From: a virus
IMG/VR virus record: IMGVR_UViG_3300028392_000088
Location: 1-50,728 of that record
DNA length: 50,728 bases
Direction: 5' to 3' (one strand)
Part shown: positions 1 to 22,492 of the stretch, piece by piece
Layout: every line of letters begins with the position of its first letter
Numbering within the stretch: position 1 is the first letter of the stretch
Notes under the pieces: model-generated
The model's input: only the letters and a program-made list of their open reading frames with translations
Told to the model about the DNA's origin: nothing
The model's database searches: none
Program-made: the position numbers and the translations under genes

Positions 1-1
1 T

Positions 2-109
2 CAGGGTCTACAAGGTACTACAGGTACTCAAGGTGTTCAGGGTCTACAAGGTACTACAGGTACTCAAGGTGTTCAGGGTCTACAAGGTACTACAGGTACT
101 CAAGGTGTT
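2..109 (+). repeat. Three perfect tandem copies of a 36-bp unit
   Basis: Units at 2-37, 38-73 and 74-109 are identical and encode the 12-residue block [12 protein letters not shown] of the collagen-like fibre. The array may continue to the left outside the window. Because the unit is a multiple of 3, gain or loss of copies keeps the frame and would only change rod length. Confidence 0.95.
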
Positions 110-337
110 CAGGGAACTCAGGGTCTATCTGTCCAAGGAACCCAAGGCCTACAAGGTTTTGGCTATGCTCAGTTGCAGGGTACTCAAGGTATACAAGGTA
201 TACAAGGTATACAAGGTATACAAGGTATACAAGGTATACAGAGCACTCAAGGTATTCAAGGCTTACAAGGTGATTCTGGTACCCAAGGAACCAATGGATT
301 TACCGATTATCAAACATATACATTCATTTATAGATAG
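2..337 (+). CDS. Collagen-like tail fibre protein, C-terminal part (5' end outside window)
   Basis: The frame is open from the first bases to a TAG at 335-337 and encodes Gly-X-Y triplets almost throughout ([12 protein letters not shown], then a run of GIQ), followed by a short non-collagenous tail ending in FIYR. Collagen-like triplet stretches are known from phage fibres, where they form trimeric rod segments. The next genes are also fibre or adhesin genes, which supports a receptor-binding role. Glutamine dominates the Y position and proline is absent, so any triple helix would not rely on hydroxyproline. The start codon lies outside the window. A second ORF over the same DNA in another frame is a repeat-driven shadow. 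The fibre role is inferred from composition and context. Confidence 0.8.
188..241 (+). repeat. Six tandem copies of a 9-bp unit in the collagen-like gene
   Basis: The unit GGTATACAA is repeated five times, and the sixth copy ends in CAG. It encodes six consecutive Gly-Ile-Gln triplets. A perfect in-frame minisatellite of this kind is prone to slippage. Confidence 0.95.
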
Positions 338-345
338 GAAACAAA

Positions 346-726
346 ATGGCAGCAACCCCTCAATTTGCAGCAACAGTTAGAACAGGTGCAGTATCCATTG
401 GTACTGCAGATACTAGCCGTACAGCACCTACTAACGTAGGTACTTTATTTAGTGCAGGTTCTAATCATTCTAGGGTAGACGAAATAGATATTGTTGCAAC
501 AGGTACTACTACCGCAGGTGTAGTGCGTATTTTTGTTTACAATGGATCAACCTATTACTTGCTTAGAGAAGTTCTTGTTTCTGCAATTACACCTTCAACA
601 ACCGTAGCGGTATTTAGCAACACAATTATTTTTAGCAACCTAGTAATTCCTTCAGGTTATTCAATCCGTGTAACAACTAACAACGCAGAAACATTTCATG
701 TAACAGCATTTGGTGGAGACTTTTAA
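346..726 (+). CDS. Small beta-rich virion-associated protein
   Basis: This 126-residue protein starts nine bases after the collagen-like gene, behind the AGGAAA-type ribosome binding site in ataggaaacaaaATG. The sequence alternates short hydrophobic strands with Thr/Ser/Asn-rich turns (for example VDEIDIVATGTTTAGVVRIF and LVIPSGYSIRVTT), as expected for a compact beta-sandwich. It has no catalytic motif, signal peptide or membrane segment. Its place between a fibre and three adhesin-like genes suggests a fibre-tip or fibre-joining role, but that is inference. I do not recognise a named family. Confidence 0.7.
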   Translation: MAATPQFAATVRTGAVSIGTADTSRTAPTNVGTLFSAGSNHSRVDEIDIVATGTTTAGVVRIFVYNGSTYYLLREVLVSAITPSTTVAVFSNTIIFSNLVIPSGYSIRVTTNNAETFHVTAFGGDF

Positions 727-728
727 AA

Positions 729-1595
729 ATGAATAAAGGTGCCTTACACGGTTATGGATTTAGCCCTACAGATGTAAGCCTTCAGCGTGTCATAACCTCT
801 ACAACCAGTTCTATAGGTATTCCAGCAGATGTAAAATTTGTGTACGCTGTTGTAGTTGGCGGCGGTGGAGCAGGTGGCGGTAACTCTGCTACACAAGGTG
901 GCTCTGGTGGTGGCGGAGCAGGGGCCGTAATCCAAGGTTGGACTTTAGCCGTAAACTCCGCTGTAATTGGTACTGGAGGAACTGCTACTTCAGCAGCAAA
1001 AGGCGGTACTGGTGGAACAACTACTTACAGTATTTTCACAGCACAAGGTGGTTCTGGAGGTGGCTATCCAGCTTCCACAGCAGGAGTGGCAGGAACAAAT
1101 GGTGCTGGAGCAGGTGCCCCTGGAGCAAGCACGACTACTGCTGGAGCAGCAACTGCTGGAGCTTTTCTTGGCTACAACTACGGCGGTGGAGGTGGAGTAG
1201 CAGCAATTTCTGCTGGAACTCCAGGTAACGGAGAAACAGGAGCATCAGGTGGAGGAGGCGGTCCAGTTACCGCAACCGCATCTGCCGCATTAGTCGGTGG
1301 AGCAGGAGGCTCTGGACTTGCTGGAGGTGGCGGAGGTGGAGCATACAACTCTACAAGTTCTACACTTACTGGAGGTGCTGGTGGTAACGGAATTTATCCA
1401 GGCGGTGCTGGAAGAGTTGTAACTGGTACAGGTGCTTCTGGAGGTGGGGGCGGCGGAGTTTATGGACCTGGAGTTTCACCAACTACAACTACAGGTGGTG
1501 CAGGAGGCATCGGTGGCGGTGGTGGCGGTGGAGTAGGAACTACTTCAACTGCTGGAGGAGCTGGAGGACAAGGTATCGTTCTCCTGTATTGGTAG
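729..1595 (+). CDS. Glycine-rich adhesin-like tail protein, paralogue 1 of 3
   Basis: The 288 residues comprise a short N-terminal region (MNKGALHGYGF, LQRVITS), the segment KFVYAVVVGGGGAGGG, a long glycine-rich body with many GGGG runs, and a C-terminal signature ending GIVLLYW. Polyglycine-rich domains of this type occur in phage adhesins such as the T-even gp38 family, where glycine loops form receptor-binding sandwiches; that parallel rests on composition only. The two following genes share the N-terminal and C-terminal signatures, so the three form a tandem paralogous family. Spacing is 2 bases from the gene before and 6 to the gene after, so they are probably co-transcribed. Confidence 0.8.
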   Translation: MNKGALHGYGFSPTDVSLQRVITSTTSSIGIPADVKFVYAVVVGGGGAGGGNSATQGGSGGGGAGAVIQGWTLAVNSAVIGTGGTATSAAKGGTGGTTTYSIFTAQGGSGGGYPASTAGVAGTNGAGAGAPGASTTTAGAATAGAFLGYNYGGGGGVAAISAGTPGNGETGASGGGGGPVTATASAALVGGAGGSGLAGGGGGGAYNSTSSTLTGGAGGNGIYPGGAGRVVTGTGASGGGGGGVYGPGVSPTTTTGGAGGIGGGGGGGVGTTSTAGGAGGQGIVLLYW

Positions 1596-1601
1596 GTAAT
1601 T

Positions 1602-2762
1602 ATGAATAAAGGCACATTAAATGGATTTAATAAATCCACAAATGATTTAAAACTCCAGCGTGTAATTTTAAATACAGGATATGTCGACATCCCATCAAAC
1701 ATTAACATCGTCTACGCAGTTGTTGTAGGTGGTGGAGGCGGCGGCGGCGGTATGGCTACTACCAACCTTGTAAGCGGCGGTGGAGGTGGCGGTGGATCAG
1801 TTATTCAAGGTTGGACTATTCCATTATCATATGCAGTAATCGGTGCTGGAGGAGCAGGTCAGGCTGCTAGAGGTAGTAGCGGTGGAGCCACAATATACGC
1901 AAATTTTTATGCTTCAGGTGGTGGTGGAGGGGCTGGAAGCGGTACTTACACAGGTATTGCTGGTAATGGTTCTGGTTCTGGAGGCTCTTCTAGTGGGGTG
2001 GCTACTCAAGGTGCTTCTATTACTGCAACATCGATGGGCATCACTTTAGGCGGTGCTGGCGGAGCGGGGAATGCAGGTAACATAAGTTCTATCTACGAGG
2101 GCTATAGTGGAGAGGCTGGCTCAGGTGGTGGCGGTGGAGGTGGAATCTACACTAATGATCAAACAGATATTGTAGGCGGAACTGGAGGATTTGGACTTAC
2201 TGGCGGGGGTGGTGGTTCTTGTTACTCAACAGGTGTGGCAGCAGTTCAAGGCGGTAACGGTGGAGACGGAATCTACCCTGGAGGTTTAGGACTTCCTTAT
2301 GTTTACGGAGATTTAATTATGGTTGCTGGGGGTGGAGGTGGAGGTGGAGTTGTCGGACCTGGAGGTTCTCCAAAAGATTTACAAAACCTAAGTTCAACAA
2401 CTTCATTATCAATTCCATCTACCGCATCGGCTAGAACATTTTATGTAAGCGACACTAAAGGATTTGTAACTAACTGTGCAGTTAAAATTAGCGTAGTTGG
2501 TGACCCTTTTAGTTATGTCGCAGGTCGGGCTACGGTAATTACTAATACTTATGTAAGCATTTCATCTTCAAACATGACTGACTTTAGCGGTCTTGGAACC
2601 TATAACAACTGGGTTATTGAGTATGATCCTTATGGTGACGGAGGTGTTAGCAAAAACGCTGGCGGTGTCGGAGGAATCGGTGGAGGCGGAGGTGGAGCTG
2701 GTAGCGGAACTAGCACTCCGGGGGGAAATGGAGGTCAAGGTGCAGTTCTGCTGTACTGGTAA
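1602..2762 (+). CDS. Glycine-rich adhesin-like tail protein, paralogue 2 of 3, with extra domain
   Basis: This 386-residue paralogue begins MNKGTLNGF, shares the LQRVIL, YVDIPSNI and VYAVVVGGGGGG segments with its neighbours, and ends GAVLLYW. Compared with paralogue 1 it carries about 100 additional, non-glycine-rich residues at roughly 260-355, just after a GPGGSP segment that matches GPGVSP in paralogue 1. The insert (starting near KDLQNLSS and ending near EYDPYGDGG) looks like a small beta domain with hydrophobic strands. Glycine-rich sequence resumes after it. The insert is the main reason for the size difference within the family. Receptor binding is inferred from family resemblance and position. 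Confidence 0.8.
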   Translation: MNKGTLNGFNKSTNDLKLQRVILNTGYVDIPSNINIVYAVVVGGGGGGGGMATTNLVSGGGGGGGSVIQGWTIPLSYAVIGAGGAGQAARGSSGGATIYANFYASGGGGGAGSGTYTGIAGNGSGSGGSSSGVATQGASITATSMGITLGGAGGAGNAGNISSIYEGYSGEAGSGGGGGGGIYTNDQTDIVGGTGGFGLTGGGGGSCYSTGVAAVQGGNGGDGIYPGGLGLPYVYGDLIMVAGGGGGGGVVGPGGSPKDLQNLSSTTSLSIPSTASARTFYVSDTKGFVTNCAVKISVVGDPFSYVAGRATVITNTYVSISSSNMTDFSGLGTYNNWVIEYDPYGDGGVSKNAGGVGGIGGGGGGAGSGTSTPGGNGGQGAVLLYW

Positions 2763-2767
2763 AAATT

Positions 2768-3604
2768 ATGATTGTTAATAAAAAATTTGGATTTGTTCCT
2801 TCTGGATTAACTTTACAAAGAACAATACTTTCTACTGGTTATGTTGATATTCCATCCAACATCACTCAAGTTTTTGCGGTAGTGGTTGGAGGTGGCGGTG
2901 GGAGTTCTCTTACCATAAATGGTTCCGCAGGGGGTGGCGGTGGTGGCGTGGCTTTTGGGTATGTAACTGCAAGAAACTACGCAATAGTAGGCGTTGGCGG
3001 AGCTCAAGACGAAGCAACATCTGAAGGCTTAAGTGGCGGTAGAAGTTCTTATGGCGGTTTATCTGCTAATGGCGGAGGTGGCGGTGGCGGGCTAATTGCT
3101 GGAAAAGCAGTCACTGGTGCTGGAGGTGGAGGCGGTGGAGTAAGTGCTGCTGTTCCATCCCCTCCATCCTCTCCATCCCCACAAGCAGGTGGAGTGTCTA
3201 CTGCCCTTTTTCTTTACAAAAGTGGTAGTGGTGGTGCAGGAGCATCAGGTAGCGAAGTAACCGCAACATCGGGGGGAAATGGCACTTCTGGCGGTGGAGG
3301 AGGTCTTGCTTACAGCAATGCTGCTGGAGACACATCTACAATTACTGGCGGAAACGGTGGAAACGGACTTACTGGAGGCGGTGGCGGAGAGGCTACAAGT
3401 GATAGTTCTCTCACTACTCTTCTCGGCGGTGACGGCGGTAACGGAGTTTACCCAGGACAACCAAGAGATGTAATAACTGGTTTTCCTGGTTCTGGAGGAG
3501 GAATTTTAGGGTCAGGTGACTCATTTGGAAGAGGCGGTCTTGGTGGGGGCGGTGGAGCAGGAGGCTCCGACGGAGGAGATGGTTGTATATTATTATTTTG
3601 GTAA
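2768..3604 (+). CDS. Glycine-rich adhesin-like tail protein, paralogue 3 of 3
   Basis: The 278-residue product shares LQRTIL, YVDIPSNI, FAVVVGGGGG and a C-terminal GCILLFW with the two upstream paralogues, but its first residues (MIVNKKFGFVP) differ. A short Ser/Pro-rich stretch near residues 136-145 (PSPPSSPSPQ) interrupts the glycine-rich body and could be a hinge. It follows paralogue 2 after five bases. The family probably arose by tandem duplication and then diverged in the glycine-rich centre while keeping the ends, as seen in interchangeable adhesins. Confidence 0.8.
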   Translation: MIVNKKFGFVPSGLTLQRTILSTGYVDIPSNITQVFAVVVGGGGGSSLTINGSAGGGGGGVAFGYVTARNYAIVGVGGAQDEATSEGLSGGRSSYGGLSANGGGGGGGLIAGKAVTGAGGGGGGVSAAVPSPPSSPSPQAGGVSTALFLYKSGSGGAGASGSEVTATSGGNGTSGGGGGLAYSNAAGDTSTITGGNGGNGLTGGGGGEATSDSSLTTLLGGDGGNGVYPGQPRDVITGFPGSGGGILGSGDSFGRGGLGGGGGAGGSDGGDGCILLFW

Positions 3605-3613
3605 GGAGAAAAA

Positions 3614-3796
3614 ATGCCTAATTATGCAGTAGTAAATCCACAAGGTGGAGTAGTGTCAAACATTGTAGTTGGCAATGATTTAGAGTCGGTCAAAGAAGTA
3701 ATCAGTGATGTCGTAGAGATTACTGAAGAAACTGGTGTAGCTGGTATTGGCTACACATGGAACCCTGCAACTGGTACTTTTAGTTTTGAAGAGTAG
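3614..3796 (+). CDS. Small fibre-associated protein
   Basis: This 60-residue protein begins MPNYAVVN and ends in a YTWNPATGTFSF segment before an acidic tail. Short proteins with this layout, an N-terminal strand of the type YAVV..GVV.NIVV and a C-terminal GYTW.PATGTF motif, commonly follow tail fibre genes in environmental phages; I know the pattern but no experimentally established function. A clear ribosome binding site (aaggagaaaaaATG) precedes it. The stop codon directly abuts the stop of the convergent methyltransferase gene, with no intergenic space. Confidence 0.7.
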   Translation: MPNYAVVNPQGGVVSNIVVGNDLESVKEVISDVVEITEETGVAGIGYTWNPATGTFSFEE

Positions 3797-5065
3797 TTAA
3801 ACAGTAACATTAAAAAATTCTTGATTACGAATTGCTAAATTTGGATTTACCCAAATTTGGTCTTGTATTCCAGAACCCCATTCGTAATAAATATCAACCA
3901 ATACAAATCCTTGATTTTTCATAAAAACAGTAATTTCAGCGGTAAGAATATGGTTGTCGTGAGTTGGATTAGTTTCAGTCTCAACATGCAATAATTTGAC
4001 ATGCTTCAGTCGATCACCAAATCCTTCAATAACTTGACCACTAAATCCCTCGGTATCAATTTTTACTACATCAATAATTCCATCAATACCGATGTTGCTT
4101 AAAAAAGTATCCATACGAGTTACGGGGACAATAACTTTGTCAATAATTCCAATAAAATCTTTTGGGTACATAGTATTTTCTTTACTAGCCATAGAAGAAC
4201 ATCCAGCAAGTTCTTTATTGTCTGAGTTTACTTGATAAAAAGTAGTCTCACCATCAAAATTTGAAATAGCAGTATATTCAACAATCATCCATGGATGTAA
4301 TTTTTTTGTAAGTTCTACAGCCTTAACGCTTGCATCTACTGCAATAACTGTAATTCCATTTAGTCGGTCAGATAAGTACTTAGCATCATCGCCATCACGA
4401 GTCCCAATATCAATAATAATAGGGGCATCAACACCAAAAAATTTACGATAGTTAGTGACTACTGGCTCAAGCGGATCTATCTCCTCTAAATTAATTCCTA
4501 TTTTACGAAGATTATTTTTAACCGCAATTTTATATTCTCTAACTAAATTTTGCTTTTCCAGTCTTAGTAGTATTTTTATGCTTTCATCTTTTCGACCAAT
4601 CCACCAAGCACTTATAGCAACTTGAAACTCTAAAGAATAGTCTCCGTGATACCCATCAATATCAATAGGAAGTCGAACCAAAGGATTGTCCAACATCATC
4701 AAACCAATTGTTGCGTAGGTATAGCACTCCTGCCAGTTTCCATCTTTTTCATAAAATCTTGACAAAAGAAAATATGCTTCAGGTCTTTTTGGTAAATGGG
4801 CAATTGCTTGAAGAATTACATTAGAGACAGTATTTCTCCTATCTTTCTGACCCTCAATGCAGATAGATATTCTAAGCAAAGAAGCATAGGCAATAAGAGG
4901 TTCAGTTTCATAGCCGTACTCAGCCGCACGCAAATAAAATCCAACAGCAGATGCCGTCTGACCTAATTTTTCATACTCAACGGCAATATCAAAGTTTTTC
5001 TTGGCATCGAGTGGGTCACTAAAAGCCTCAACAACAAGTCTTTCAATAATCTCATTAGAACTCAT
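3797..5065 (-). CDS. TPR-containing FkbM-family methyltransferase
   Basis: The 422-residue protein has two parts. Residues 1 to about 190 are helical with TPR-like spacing (for example AVEYEKLGQTASAVGFYLRA and EAYFLLSRFYEKDGNWQECY). Residues from about 205 form a class I SAM-dependent methyltransferase: motif I at 216-226 (IIIDIGTRDGD), an acidic end of strand 2 (VIAVDAS), and the FkbM hallmark KIDTEGFSGQVIEGF. FkbM enzymes O-methylate sugars or natural products. TPR modules fused to sugar-modifying enzymes occur in other environmental phages. The gene overlaps the start region of the upstream propeller gene by 11 bases, so both are probably translated from one message. Modification of virion or host-surface glycans is likely; the exact substrate is unknown. 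Confidence 0.85.
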   Translation of the reverse strand: MSSNEIIERLVVEAFSDPLDAKKNFDIAVEYEKLGQTASAVGFYLRAAEYGYETEPLIAYASLLRISICIEGQKDRRNTVSNVILQAIAHLPKRPEAYFLLSRFYEKDGNWQECYTYATIGLMMLDNPLVRLPIDIDGYHGDYSLEFQVAISAWWIGRKDESIKILLRLEKQNLVREYKIAVKNNLRKIGINLEEIDPLEPVVTNYRKFFGVDAPIIIDIGTRDGDDAKYLSDRLNGITVIAVDASVKAVELTKKLHPWMIVEYTAISNFDGETTFYQVNSDNKELAGCSSMASKENTMYPKDFIGIIDKVIVPVTRMDTFLSNIGIDGIIDVVKIDTEGFSGQVIEGFGDRLKHVKLLHVETETNPTHDNHILTAEITVFMKNQGFVLVDIYYEWGSGIQDQIWVNPNLAIRNQEFFNVTV

Positions 5066-6074
5066 AAGTCAATGCCTCCGAAATAAGTTCTTCAACAACA
5101 AGCTTAGGAGTTCTCAAAATAAAAGCAGCGTTGTCTTGGACACCAAAACTAATCAATAAATCGTCTCCATACTTAGCAGCACCAGCAACAAACTCCACCC
5201 TTGCTTCTAAGAATGTAAGCGGTCTAGGAGATAACCCAATTAGGTTGAACTGCTCATCCCAAATAACTAATCGATGTCTGTAGATACCATCTTTTTGATC
5301 AAGATAGTTTTTGAACAAATCAACTTCGTGAGTGATTGCAATGTACACATTTCCCCACCGAACAACTTGAGAACTACCACGTTGGTCTTTAAGTGGAGTA
5401 AGTCCTTGATTCAACATAACCTGCTCACATCTTGCTGGCAGCTCTGGATAAGTTCTAACAACTTCAGTCGGAGATGTCCACTTCACAAAATGAAACGGTT
5501 TGTCAAGAATCGGCATCCAGTTCTTTTCGCAGTAAGAATTGTTTGCTCCAGGAGCAGGAATGCGAATACGAGATATTTCTTTTACTTCCCAAGTCTCCTC
5601 ATTGATAGTAATCTCGCTAAGTTCCATACGACCCTCACCATGAGTTGTCGTATCTCTTCTAACTCCAATGATGTAGTATTTACCATCCCACTCAACGAGG
5701 CGACAATCTTCTTCACCAGTAAACTCCCATAAAGGTTGCACATCTAGTTCTGAAGTGTCAACCAGTCCGTGCCCAACCATAGACAAGTTTTCATCTAGCT
5801 TACAAATGTAGTTAGTTGTGCGAAGCGCTTGATCTTGCTCAGGGTGTAGGTAGGACATCGGCCCCCACCTGCTGTTGAACCGTTGATTGTTTTCCGAATG
5901 ATAAAGAGTGTAATTTACATGACGTAAATTTACAAAAATCTCATCTTTTGAATTAACAAAAACAGATGGATTCATAAGTCCAGTACCTGAAGTTAGTTCA
6001 TCTGATATAATAATAATAGGAGCAATCCTGCCCCCCTGAAAAATCGATCTTTGAACCAAATTATTTGAAGTCAT
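5055..6074 (-). CDS. Beta-propeller glycosidase-like protein
   Basis: The 339-residue protein shows the repeating strand pattern of five-bladed propeller glycoside hydrolase/phosphorylase-like proteins (GH43/GH130-like). Visible motifs are GLMNPSVFV near the N terminus, FTGEEDCRLVEWDGKYY near 118-134, a GVRRDT segment, EKNWMPI near 184-190, and SSQVVRWGN. EDCR and EKNW segments are typical of this fold family near the active-site funnel, but I cannot confirm the catalytic acid or base. The gene is co-directional and overlaps the FkbM methyltransferase, so a joint role in carbohydrate recognition, trimming or decoration is likely. It is the first gene of a minus-strand unit whose promoter must lie in 6075-6223. 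Confidence 0.65.
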   Translation of the reverse strand: MTSNNLVQRSIFQGGRIAPIIIISDELTSGTGLMNPSVFVNSKDEIFVNLRHVNYTLYHSENNQRFNSRWGPMSYLHPEQDQALRTTNYICKLDENLSMVGHGLVDTSELDVQPLWEFTGEEDCRLVEWDGKYYIIGVRRDTTTHGEGRMELSEITINEETWEVKEISRIRIPAPGANNSYCEKNWMPILDKPFHFVKWTSPTEVVRTYPELPARCEQVMLNQGLTPLKDQRGSSQVVRWGNVYIAITHEVDLFKNYLDQKDGIYRHRLVIWDEQFNLIGLSPRPLTFLEARVEFVAGAAKYGDDLLISFGVQDNAAFILRTPKLVVEELISEALTYEF

Positions 6075-6111
6075 TTATACCTACTCTTTAATGTGTTCAG
6101 TATATCAAAGT

Positions 6112-6137
6112 ATCATATTTATCCACTAAAATATGAT
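6112..6137. promoter_or_regulatory. Inverted repeat in divergent promoter region
   Basis: Arms ATCATATTT (6112-6120) and AAATATGAT (6129-6137) are perfect inverse complements separated by 8 bases. They lie in the 149-bp AT-rich gap between the minus-strand propeller gene and the plus-strand replication operon. The position suits an operator controlling both directions. No convincing -35/-10 pair of sigma-70 type stands out. The operator role is inferred. Confidence 0.4.
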
Positions 6138-6223
6138 TTAAATAGTAAAAATCAGATAAAATTAAGTACGATAGAATTATTTAGCAAGTAAAATAAATAC
6201 AAACTACAAACTAAGGAAGACAA

Positions 6224-6409
6224 ATGGCTGAACAAGACCAAATTGAACTAATCGGAAATGTACTAAACATTACCCGTGAACAACTAACTCGCTCTATGAA
6301 TCTAAACGCAGAACTTGAAGCCCTTCTTGGTGCCGAAAGATCTAAAGTTGCAGAACTAGAAAAGCAGCTAGCTGAACTCACTGGAAAAGAATCTAAAGAT
6401 AAAAAGTAA
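6224..6409 (+). CDS. Small coiled-coil protein
   Basis: This 61-residue, highly charged protein has heptad-like leucine spacing from about residue 17 to 53 (LTRSMNLNAELEALLGAE, VAELEKQLAEL) and a lysine-rich end. It is the first gene of the plus-strand early operon and has a good ribosome binding site (aaggaagacaaATG). No enzymatic motif is visible. A short dimerising coiled coil at the head of a replication operon could be an accessory or regulatory factor, but nothing in the sequence fixes its role. An ORF antisense to it is a codon shadow. Confidence 0.75.
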   Translation: MAEQDQIELIGNVLNITREQLTRSMNLNAELEALLGAERSKVAELEKQLAELTGKESKDKK

Positions 6410-6412
6410 CCC

Positions 6413-6889
6413 ATGAGCACTTTTGAAGTTAAAGATGGAGCTAGAACGCTTCAATTTAACGGCAAGCTGCTTGGAAAATCTAGCTCTTACAAACGTGGAT
6501 CCAATCGATGGATAGAGTTTGCACTCTATAAAACCGAGAGCGGATCTTACGTTTTGTCTAGAGTAGGTATCTCCTTAATCTTTCACGGTGCAGCATGTCC
6601 GTTAGTTAAAAGATATGATCTACATGAAATAGACTACAATCTTTTAACTAAATCATCTACTCCGTGTGAACAATGTAGACCAACTCAAGAAGCTGAATTA
6701 GTTTTTCCAGAAAAAGATCGTTTTTGGGCTCAAGTTAGTGCTGAAGCTAGTGCTATCCTAGATGCATTGTACAAATACGACGAGAATGGATCGAAGTACC
6801 TAACTTATGTTGCTCAGAATCTTCTTGAAAATGCTGGTAAAAACGACACAGGGATTGAAAAAATCTATAAATTTGAAATTATTCCATAA
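6413..6889 (+). CDS. Hypothetical protein with CxxC motif
   Basis: The 158-residue protein starts three bases after the coiled-coil gene. The N-terminal half is beta-like and basic (KLLGKSSSYKRGSNRWIEFALYKT). A cysteine pair CEQC lies near residues 83-86, and a further cysteine occurs near residue 62 (GAACPLVKR), so it could bind a metal if a fourth ligand is supplied by a histidine. The C-terminal half is helical. I do not recognise the family. Its position just before the DNA polymerase suggests an early DNA-metabolism or host-takeover role. Confidence 0.7.
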   Translation: MSTFEVKDGARTLQFNGKLLGKSSSYKRGSNRWIEFALYKTESGSYVLSRVGISLIFHGAACPLVKRYDLHEIDYNLLTKSSTPCEQCRPTQEAELVFPEKDRFWAQVSAEASAILDALYKYDENGSKYLTYVAQNLLENAGKNDTGIEKIYKFEIIP

Positions 6890-11355: not shown

Positions 11356-12318
11356 ATGAATGACGAAACTACACAAGAAGTAAAGCCATACCGTCTCTCT
11401 AACTCAGAGATTCAGGTATTCAAAGATTGCAGACGTAAGTGGTGGCTAAACTACTACAGACGTCTCATGCCAAAGAAAAGAGACTACACCGGTGCTTTAG
11501 CCCTTGGATCTCGTATCCACGAAGCTCTAGACCAGTATTACTCTTCTAACGGCACAGTGGACCTCCTAGAGGCTCATGCTGCCCTTGTAAAAAAGGATAT
11601 GGAAACTTTAGTCGCAGAATATCGCGACACCTCAGATCTTGAATCCGAGGCCGAACTAGGACGAATCATGCTTGAAGGATATCTTCAGTGGATGGATGAC
11701 GAGGGTATCGACGCTGAGCTAGAAATGATTTCTACTGAAGAGATTATTGAAATGCCAATGTTTGATGGAGAAGTTATTCTTCAAGGAAAGCTCGATATGC
11801 GTGTTCGTCGTAAGATCGATGGCGTTCGTATGTTCCGTGACTTCAAGACTGTTGGTGGATCTTTTGCAGATTTTGCAAACCAGGCTCAAATGAATGAGCA
11901 GATTCTTACTTACATGATGCTAGAACACGCTCAAAATAAATCACCGGAAGAACGTTCCGAGGGTGGTATCTTTACTATGCTTAAAAAAGTAAAACGTACA
12001 GCTAATGCTAAACCACCGTTTTACGAGCAAATTGAAGTTCGACACAACGTATTTACAATGCGTGCTTTTTGGCAACGTATTCATGGTACAGTTGCAGATC
12101 TAATGACTGTTAAGAAATCTCTTGATGCAGGTCAGGATCCTAATTTTGTCGCTTACCCACGTCCTACCAAGGACTGCAAGTGGAAGTGCCAGTTCTACAC
12201 TATCTGCCCAATGATTGATGATGGTTCATCAGCAGAAGCAGCTATTGAAGATATGTATGAGGTCTCCGACCCATACGGATATTACAAATCACAAGACGAA
12301 AAGAAAGGTAGTGACTAA
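11356..12318 (+). CDS. Cas4/RecB-like PD-(D/E)XK exonuclease with four-cysteine cluster
   Basis: The 320-residue nuclease begins with YRLSNSEIQVFKDCRRKWWL, the usual start of RecB/Cas4 domains with a first cysteine (C25). A histidine motif GSRIHEALDQYY (H55) follows, then an upstream acidic residue in GKLDMRV, and the core DFKTVG (D162, K164). The C terminus has CKWKCQFYTIC (C274, C278, C284). The one-plus-three cysteine pattern is that of 4Fe-4S-cluster nucleases such as Cas4 and AddB. No CRISPR genes are nearby and the gene sits between a helicase and a Sak4-like ATPase, so resection of DNA ends for recombination is the likely role. Confidence 0.92.
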   Translation: MNDETTQEVKPYRLSNSEIQVFKDCRRKWWLNYYRRLMPKKRDYTGALALGSRIHEALDQYYSSNGTVDLLEAHAALVKKDMETLVAEYRDTSDLESEAELGRIMLEGYLQWMDDEGIDAELEMISTEEIIEMPMFDGEVILQGKLDMRVRRKIDGVRMFRDFKTVGGSFADFANQAQMNEQILTYMMLEHAQNKSPEERSEGGIFTMLKKVKRTANAKPPFYEQIEVRHNVFTMRAFWQRIHGTVADLMTVKKSLDAGQDPNFVAYPRPTKDCKWKCQFYTICPMIDDGSSAEAAIEDMYEVSDPYGYYKSQDEKKGSD

Positions 12319-12320
12319 GC

Positions 12321-13079
12321 ATGTCAGATGTACAGCGTTCACTAACTATCATGGTCTATGGCGAATCAAAGGTTGGTAAATCAACTTTTGCAGTCACAGC
12401 ACCGTACCCTCGCCTTATGCTAGACGTTGAGGGTGGACACAGATTCCTCCCAATTAACGTAAAGTATTGGGACCCAATGCGCGAAGAGCCACCTGTGGCT
12501 GACGGCACCTGGGACACCGTAGTTGTCACTGTACGTGACTACGACGTAGTTCTAAAAGCTTTCCAGTGGTTACAAGCAGGTAAGCACCAGTTCAAGTCAT
12601 TGATCATTGACTCCATTTCGGAGCTTCAGGTTAAATGCATGGATAACATCGCCGGTACCGAGCAGATGAAGATGCAACAGTGGGGCGAACTACTTCGCCA
12701 CATGGGTGCTCTACTTCGTGACTTGCGTGACCTTACAATGCATCCAACTCAACCTCTCGAGGCTGTAGTCCTAACTGCAATGGCACGTGCTGATCAGAAT
12801 GGTCATATGAAGCCTTACTTGCAGGGTCAACTTGCAGTTCAAGCTCCGTACTTCTATGATGTATTAGGTGCTATTGCAATTGAAAATATTCCAAATCCAG
12901 ATCCTACTCAGCTGCCTTACAAGGCACGCCGTATGTACGTGGAACGTACGGACAAGTATGATGCTGGAGAGCGTGTTCAAGGCCGATTGGGTTCCATTGT
13001 GGAACAGCAAGATCTTGGTGTTGAACGTATGCTCGACATGATTTTCGGTCCACAGACCGAGAAAAAGAAGTCGGCTTAG
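12321..13079 (+). CDS. Sak4-like RecA-fold ATPase (ssDNA annealing/strand exchange)
   Basis: The 252-residue P-loop protein carries Walker A YGESKVGKST (K20), LMLDVEGGHRF, and a Walker B-like LIIDSISELQ near residue 95, the layout of the AAA_24/Sak4 family of compact phage recombinases related to RecA/Rad51 cores. Members work with an ssDNA-binding protein to pair single strands. Placement between a Cas4-like nuclease and an SSB-like gene matches known phage recombination modules. The C terminus is basic (TEKKKSA). It begins two bases after the nuclease stop. DnaB-like helicase is unlikely because the ring-helicase motifs are absent. Confidence 0.85.
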   Translation: MSDVQRSLTIMVYGESKVGKSTFAVTAPYPRLMLDVEGGHRFLPINVKYWDPMREEPPVADGTWDTVVVTVRDYDVVLKAFQWLQAGKHQFKSLIIDSISELQVKCMDNIAGTEQMKMQQWGELLRHMGALLRDLRDLTMHPTQPLEAVVLTAMARADQNGHMKPYLQGQLAVQAPYFYDVLGAIAIENIPNPDPTQLPYKARRMYVERTDKYDAGERVQGRLGSIVEQQDLGVERMLDMIFGPQTEKKKSA

Positions 13080-21839: not shown

Positions 21840-22492
21840 TCTAAAGAGTCGTAAATATTTTTAACTGTAGTGGCGTACCATTTCCCTCCATTTTGGGTTG
21901 GTACGCCATTATTGTTTAATCGTCTAGCTATTTCGTGAAATGAAAGACCAGAATCTTTCTGTTTTCTAATTAGATCTTTTACTTCATTAGAAGTTTTATT
22001 TTTAGGTCCCATATCAACACCCCATTTAATACCTCGGGCCCGTCGATCTTTATGGACGTCCTTTTGACGCTCTGCAATAATTCCACGTTCCATCTCTGCC
22101 AGGGCAGACATAATTGTAACCACAAACCGTCCTTGATAGCTAGCTGTGTCTAGATTTAAATCAAGCATTACTAGACGCCATTTGTTAGCATTGGCTCGGT
22201 CTATGATGCTCAGGAAGTCCTTCGTAGAGCGGGCTAGGCGGTCGATACGCGTCACAAACAGGGCTGAAGCAGTCCCAGTATCCAAACGTTTTAAAGCGCC
22301 TGTAAGAGCCGGACGGCCCGTAATTGACTTACCTGAGCGACCCTCCTCACGGACAAGTTCAAACTCTGTGTACCCAGCTAGTTCAGCAGCTTGACGTAGC
22401 TGACGTTCTTGAACATCTAATGAAACTCCGTCACTTACCTGCAGTTGAGTAGATACACGAGCATACAAAAGAGCTATTCCTTGATCAGACAC
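21836..22492 (-). CDS. Serine recombinase (resolvase/invertase family)
   Basis: The 218-residue protein has the catalytic domain of serine recombinases: YARVST with nucleophile S14, LDVQERQLRQAAELAGY, the SGKSITGRPAL segment, VTRIDRLARS, and the long helix around MSALAEMERGIIAERQ. The C-terminal 50 residues (GLSFHEIARRLNNNGVPTQNGGKWYATTVKNIYD) form an HTH-type DNA-binding motif. The size fits small resolvases or invertases and not large phage integrases, which need a zinc and coiled-coil domain of another 200 residues. It overlaps the dNMP kinase by 19 bases in the same direction. Possible roles are resolution of multimers, DNA inversion in fibre genes or host integration; no att or inversion site was identified. 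Confidence 0.92.
   Translation of the reverse strand: MSDQGIALLYARVSTQLQVSDGVSLDVQERQLRQAAELAGYTEFELVREEGRSGKSITGRPALTGALKRLDTGTASALFVTRIDRLARSTKDFLSIIDRANANKWRLVMLDLNLDTASYQGRFVVTIMSALAEMERGIIAERQKDVHKDRRARGIKWGVDMGPKNKTSNEVKDLIRKQKDSGLSFHEIARRLNNNGVPTQNGGKWYATTVKNIYDSLD

Follow-up and report, generated by a model that had tools for sequence, protein, structure and literature searches.

Near the start of an uncultivated virus record, three adjacent genes encode glycine-rich proteins that resemble each other at their ends. This locus raises the question of what function the proteins have and how the differences between them arise. The record, a stretch of 50,728 bp that was analysed at its full length and is called the window here, starts within a collagen-like tail-fibre gene. 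Its DNA polymerase shows 78% identity to that of Actinomycetia phage DSL-LC01 and 56-58% to those of Microbacterium phages. DSL-LC01, a lake-water assembly, has a predicted actinobacterial host (PMC10611076), and therefore an actinobacterial host is likely for the window phage.

Organisation of the fibre cassette

From the window start, the end of the collagen-like gene is followed by a 126-aa gene, the three glycine-rich genes (copies 1 to 3), a 60-aa gene and two genes on the minus strand (Table 1). The full collagen-like gene, encoding 242 aa, is present in the related record L086 (L086:4008-4736). Spacers within the cassette measure 2-9 nt, and those between the three glycine-rich genes 5-6 nt. 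Because of these short spacers, and because no promoter-like site was found on the plus strand of the array region, the cassette genes are likely to be on one transcript. A small gene usually lies upstream of the array in relatives, and homologues of the 126-aa gene were found at this place in L088, L090, L102 and L104. Fold matches of the 126-aa protein were disregarded, since all had E values of at least 0.01 and were obtained with a poor model built without an alignment.

Table 1. Features of the fibre cassette and of the adjoining region in the window
Feature	Position	Strand	Remarks
Collagen-like (Gly-X-Y) tail-fibre gene, 3' end, truncated by record start	2..337	+	Pfam Collagen 2.5e-14; PHROG tail fibre 1e-20
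126-aa small beta-rich protein, directly upstream of array	346..726	+	low-confidence all-beta model
Glycine-rich adhesin-like paralogue 1, 288 aa	729..1595	+	
Glycine-rich adhesin-like paralogue 2, 386 aa	1602..2762	+	
Insert in paralogue 2, 89 aa, non-glycine-rich (residues 258-346)	2373..2639	+	
Glycine-rich adhesin-like paralogue 3, 278 aa, last-position type	2768..3604	+	N-terminus MxxNKKFGFVPSGL
60-aa protein (p60), phrog_14370, end of cassette	3614..3796	+	
Edge of perfect identity with L086	6772..7022	no strand	recombination or assembly junction

Sequence relationships of the three paralogues

The earlier note had described three adjacent glycine-rich genes with common ends, and this description holds. 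The genes are co-directional open reading frames whose products contain 29-35% glycine and share 47-55% amino acid identity (55, 47 and 48% in the three pairwise alignments, with 60, 54 and 52% at the nucleotide level). The motifs LQRxI and AVVVGGGG occur in all three proteins, which terminate in LLYW, LLYW and LLFW, respectively. VDIPSNI, which had been listed as a further shared motif, is present in copies 2 and 3 only; at its position, copy 1 has SIGIPADV. Between copies, 13-21% of the glycines are changed, compared to 63-69% of the other residues (P about 1e-14 to 1e-17). The likeness of the paralogues is therefore due to a conserved glycine scaffold and goes beyond mere composition. In the orthologues of L088, 1-4% of the glycines and 11-19% of the other residues differ from the window, with a dN/dS of 0.20-0.30, and these values point to purifying selection overall, with the scaffold conserved and the loops more variable. 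In a phylogenetic tree, the first, second and third genes (g1, g2 and g3) form supported groups that span phages, and the three genes keep their order and orthology in the window, L088 and L089, as do g2 and g3 in L087 and, in part, the genes of L090. The copies thus appear to be old duplications that now are separate lineages inherited in order.

As had been noted, copy 2 carries an insert that is missing from copies 1 and 3, although with 89 aa it is slightly shorter than the estimated 100 residues. It is located between two late glycine-rich strands, is modelled with low confidence as beta-rich, and is also present in copy 2 of L087, L088 and L089 and missing from copy 2 of L090. No further copy was found elsewhere in the fetched loci. 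The insert has no match in Pfam or PHROG, and a likeness to a module common in phage fibres was not borne out. Copy 3 of L139 (L139:7418-8998) and copy 3 of L157 (L157:5369-6961) carry an insert of about 220 aa after the first glycine run. This insert is longer, lies near the start and differs from that of the window in position and sequence; extra domains have therefore entered these glycine-rich proteins more than once.

Fold and comparison with known adhesins

To assign the proteins to a family, the Pfam model Gly_rich_2 (PF21722; curated cut-off 24.3 bits) was used. Copies 1 and 2 score above the cut-off (31.2 and 40.6 bits). Copy 3 scores below it (14.4 bits), although it aligns with copies 1 and 2 throughout and is homologous to them. 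The model matches 8 of 19 family members. The structure of copy 2 was modelled with AlphaFold2 from an alignment of these 19 members (pLDDT 70). The glycine core is well predicted, the N-terminus, some loops and the insert are of low confidence, and the model contains no helix of at least 4 residues. In a Foldseek search, two PDB entries matched with E <= 0.001, namely the Pam3 fibre (7ypx, 3e-4) and the Bxb1 tail tip (9d93, 8.5e-4). Against solved structures, the model reaches TM-scores of only 0.25-0.31 (by query), and therefore the match is likely to be local, with only the glycine-rich domain shared with the Pam3 and Bxb1 proteins. In addition, 151 viral models matched with E <= 0.001, many of which are named glycine-rich domain proteins, including one of Halorubrum phage HF2. 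A sequence search found no phage adhesin in the PDB; a match to VP6 spans the glycine-rich end only and was disregarded as compositional. The family match, the fold likeness and the pattern of conserved glycines and variable loops support the earlier description of the genes as glycine-rich adhesin paralogues, and it is plausible that the three proteins are glycine-rich tail-tip adhesins. To our knowledge, many Gly_rich_2 proteins are without a tested role, and domains of this glycine-rich type are also found in proteins with other roles.

Pam3 gp24, the best PDB fold match, has a glycine-rich domain like the array proteins, and the Pam3 fibre likewise adjoins an accessory gene (PMC9608196). 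This fibre has a conserved glycine stem and a variable tip that was proposed to bind receptors (PMC9608196). However, gp24 is a homotrimer encoded by a single gene and has N-terminal helical docking and TNF-like domains, which are absent from the copies, where about 42 residues precede the first glycine run. The Pam3 chaperone gp25 comprises 162 aa, and p60 has no detectable match to it. The Bxb1 tail-tip protein (9d93, chains Qa/Qb), the second-best PDB fold match, is also small and free-standing and comes from an actinobacterial phage, whereas its sequence is unrelated at the level searched. In the array proteins, alignment and change rates show glycine-rich motifs alternating with hypervariable segments, as in T-even gp38 and the PGII-sandwich adhesins of S16 and PP01 (PMC12892980). 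In contrast to the array, there is one such adhesin per fibre, which caps gp37 and has a beta-helix domain. S16 gp38 (6F45) gave no sequence match and is absent among the 50 fold matches listed. In hafunaviruses, the type of glycine-rich adhesin tracks host range (PMC8651126). The adhesin of Halorubrum HF2 resembles the array proteins in its fold match, its GGGG...GIVI layout, its hypervariable locus and a small adjoining gene, but there is one adhesin gene, and the p60 profile finds no match in the adjoining 122-aa protein.

Copy number in related phages

A scan with an N-terminal profile found 37 loci. The expectation of differing paralogue numbers in related phages was borne out, with 1-4 copies in arrays of uncultivated phages. 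One copy is present in L142 and L150, two in L104, L140, L143, L147, L158 and L159, three in the window, L088, L089, L102, L139 and L151, and four in L154, L157 and L160; the arrays of L087 and L090 are truncated by contig ends. Annotated phages were searched at the DNA level and with tblastn, using copy 2, an L090 homologue and the insert as queries, and gave no matches. For the glycine-rich queries this does not imply absence, since BLAST masks glycine-rich sequence. No confirmed relatives emerged from a viral scan based on the alignment of copy 1 or from a contig scan based on that of the N-terminus.

Comparing phages of two groups, the N-terminus of the last gene shows an identity of 0.74-0.75, versus about 0.5 in other comparisons, and its body one of 0.58-0.60. 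This conserved N-terminus next to a diverged body suggests that it is a position-specific attachment end. A p60-like gene of about 60 aa lies 3' of many arrays, except in L102, L142, L146, L147 and L149. The aligned p60-like proteins all match phrog_14370, but as they were picked for resemblance, these matches are not independent. No significant match of p60 to the PDB was found, and we propose that the protein may act as an accessory or assembly factor.

Exchange between phages

Sequence comparisons indicate that exchange runs between phages, at the scale of the whole cassette, of the single gene and of the centre that follows a conserved N-terminus. L005, L006 and L007 have polymerases that are 96-99% identical to that of the window, and they carry unrelated fibre cassettes without any member of the array; DNA homology to the window restarts at 6195 (L005, L006) or 5071 (L007). 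By eye, the replacement cassette of L007 (L007:1788-3379) encodes sulfotransferase-like and nucleotide-kinase-like proteins instead of the glycine-rich array. L086 is 100% identical to the window over positions 1-6771 and 80-88% identical after about 7022. This 6.77-kb identity looks like a recent cassette transfer. Both records come from metagenome assembly, and contig L085 stops at 6871, near the join, so the junction could also be an assembly chimera. At the level of single genes, copy 1 of L089 is 92% identical to that of the window, and copies 2 and 3 only 61% and 64%. Over the N-terminal 30-40 codons of the two genes, L158 and L159 share 93-100% nucleotide identity, which falls to about 40-80% in the centres; replacement of the bodies with the conserved end retained would give this pattern. 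Another mosaic segment was observed at window positions 11400-12400, with 99.6% DNA identity to L006 versus 84-93% in several neighbouring stretches.

Discussion

Assuming that the tandem copies serve as a recombination reservoir, as the earlier note had proposed, their conserved ends would allow the centres to swap or convert within one genome and thereby switch host range. Conserved ends and divergent centres are consistent with such a reservoir. Moreover, copies 1 and 2 of L139 share an exact run of 38 nt and their identity alternates between 0.9 and 0.5; this pair has the mosaic look of a more recent duplication. Among the 47 within-array pairs from 18 arrays, clusters of codon agreement were found in three others (L088 copies 2/3, L154 copies 1/2 and L160 copies 3/4; P 0.007-0.02), but at P<0.02 this number is close to chance and amounts to weak hints at the level of multiple testing. 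Within the window genome, recombination among the copies was not borne out. The DNA alignment contains no conversion tracts and no tracts of raised identity between copies, synonymous sites included. Exact aligned runs reach 12 nt at most, and identical residues use the same codon at a fraction of 0.35-0.45, without significant clusters (P 0.94, 0.82 and 0.06). In 20-codon windows, 0 of about 60 per comparison placed a copy nearer to a paralogue than to its orthologue. We consider a reservoir of this kind quite improbable. A dedicated mutator or switch, such as a diversity-generating retroelement or an invertible segment, could draw on the serine recombinase domain encoded at 22031-22471 on the minus strand (PF00239, E 1e-33), but this gene is about 18 kb from the array. 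The sole inverted repeat is weak (24 nt, 75%) with both arms within copy 1, and a reverse transcriptase (PF00078) was not found in the window or in eight related records, several of them fragments. With no reverse transcriptase in the records scanned, one weak repeat and a distant recombinase, both forms of this highly improbable explanation were rejected. The serine recombinase is also present in the records of L006, L007 and L031.

The paralogues might also build one hetero-oligomeric tip with a different subunit from each gene, so that the copies would be kept as a set and not as alternatives. The order and orthology conserved in the window, L087, L088, L089 and partly L090, as well as the distinctive N-terminus of the last gene, argue for such a tip, and mycobacteriophage Mysterious provides a precedent with its gp35/36/37 heterotrimer (PMC13252515). 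Like the array, this system comprises three consecutively numbered gene products, which form one baseplate fibre unit; unlike the array proteins, they have a beta-sandwich fold and are not glycine-rich, and gp36 is reported to resemble gp35 in its architecture. However, the range of 1-4 copies rules out a fixed heterotrimer as a general rule, L104 has two copies in an otherwise complete cassette, and the structural match, Pam3 gp24, is a homotrimer. Overall, a hetero-oligomeric tip appears rather doubtful. As the adhesin function is derived from homology only, the proteins could instead be structural glycine-rich spacers or decoration proteins without a receptor role. This is unlikely, as residues other than glycine carry most of the variation, close relatives differ by replacement of the cassette as a whole and the locus has genes of the tail-fibre type, all of which favours host contact.

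With moderate confidence, we explain the locus as a whole as a cassette of glycine-rich tail-tip adhesins whose copies arose by old duplications and are diversified by exchange between phages and by gain and loss of copies. In these proteins, the conserved stem would consist of a lattice of glycine strands, and receptor contact would be likely at the variable loops that lie between the strands. The adhesins are encoded head to tail, probably on one transcript, and all copies would probably be made together and not switched. We infer a virion location for the proteins and an anchoring role for their N-terminus. Diversity would stem mainly from other phages, with further diversity added as copies are gained or lost.

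More tentatively, the locus may represent a modular multi-adhesin array, by which phages of lake bacteria display 1-4 distinct glycine-rich adhesins encoded in a single cassette. Each N-terminal anchor would fit one position, bodies would be taken from other phages behind this anchor, and phrog_14370 could be a shared assembly or capping factor. The parts are of known kinds, the whole being an array of gp38/Pam3-type adhesins; as far as a limited literature search shows, a tandem, position-specific arrangement has not been described for this fold. T-even phages owe their host range to glycine-rich tip adhesins, and in haloarchaeal viruses such adhesins track it; the described cases have one gene per fibre. 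If the array is as proposed, some uncultivated lake phages bear several adhesins together that are renewed by exchange between phages, and phrog_14370 gains a concrete candidate role.

At window positions 3797-6074 (minus strand), the array is adjoined by two genes, one for an FkbM-type methyltransferase with TPR repeats and one for a 339-aa protein of unknown family. L007, L088 and L104 also have, within their fibre cassettes, relatives of the latter gene and variants of the former.
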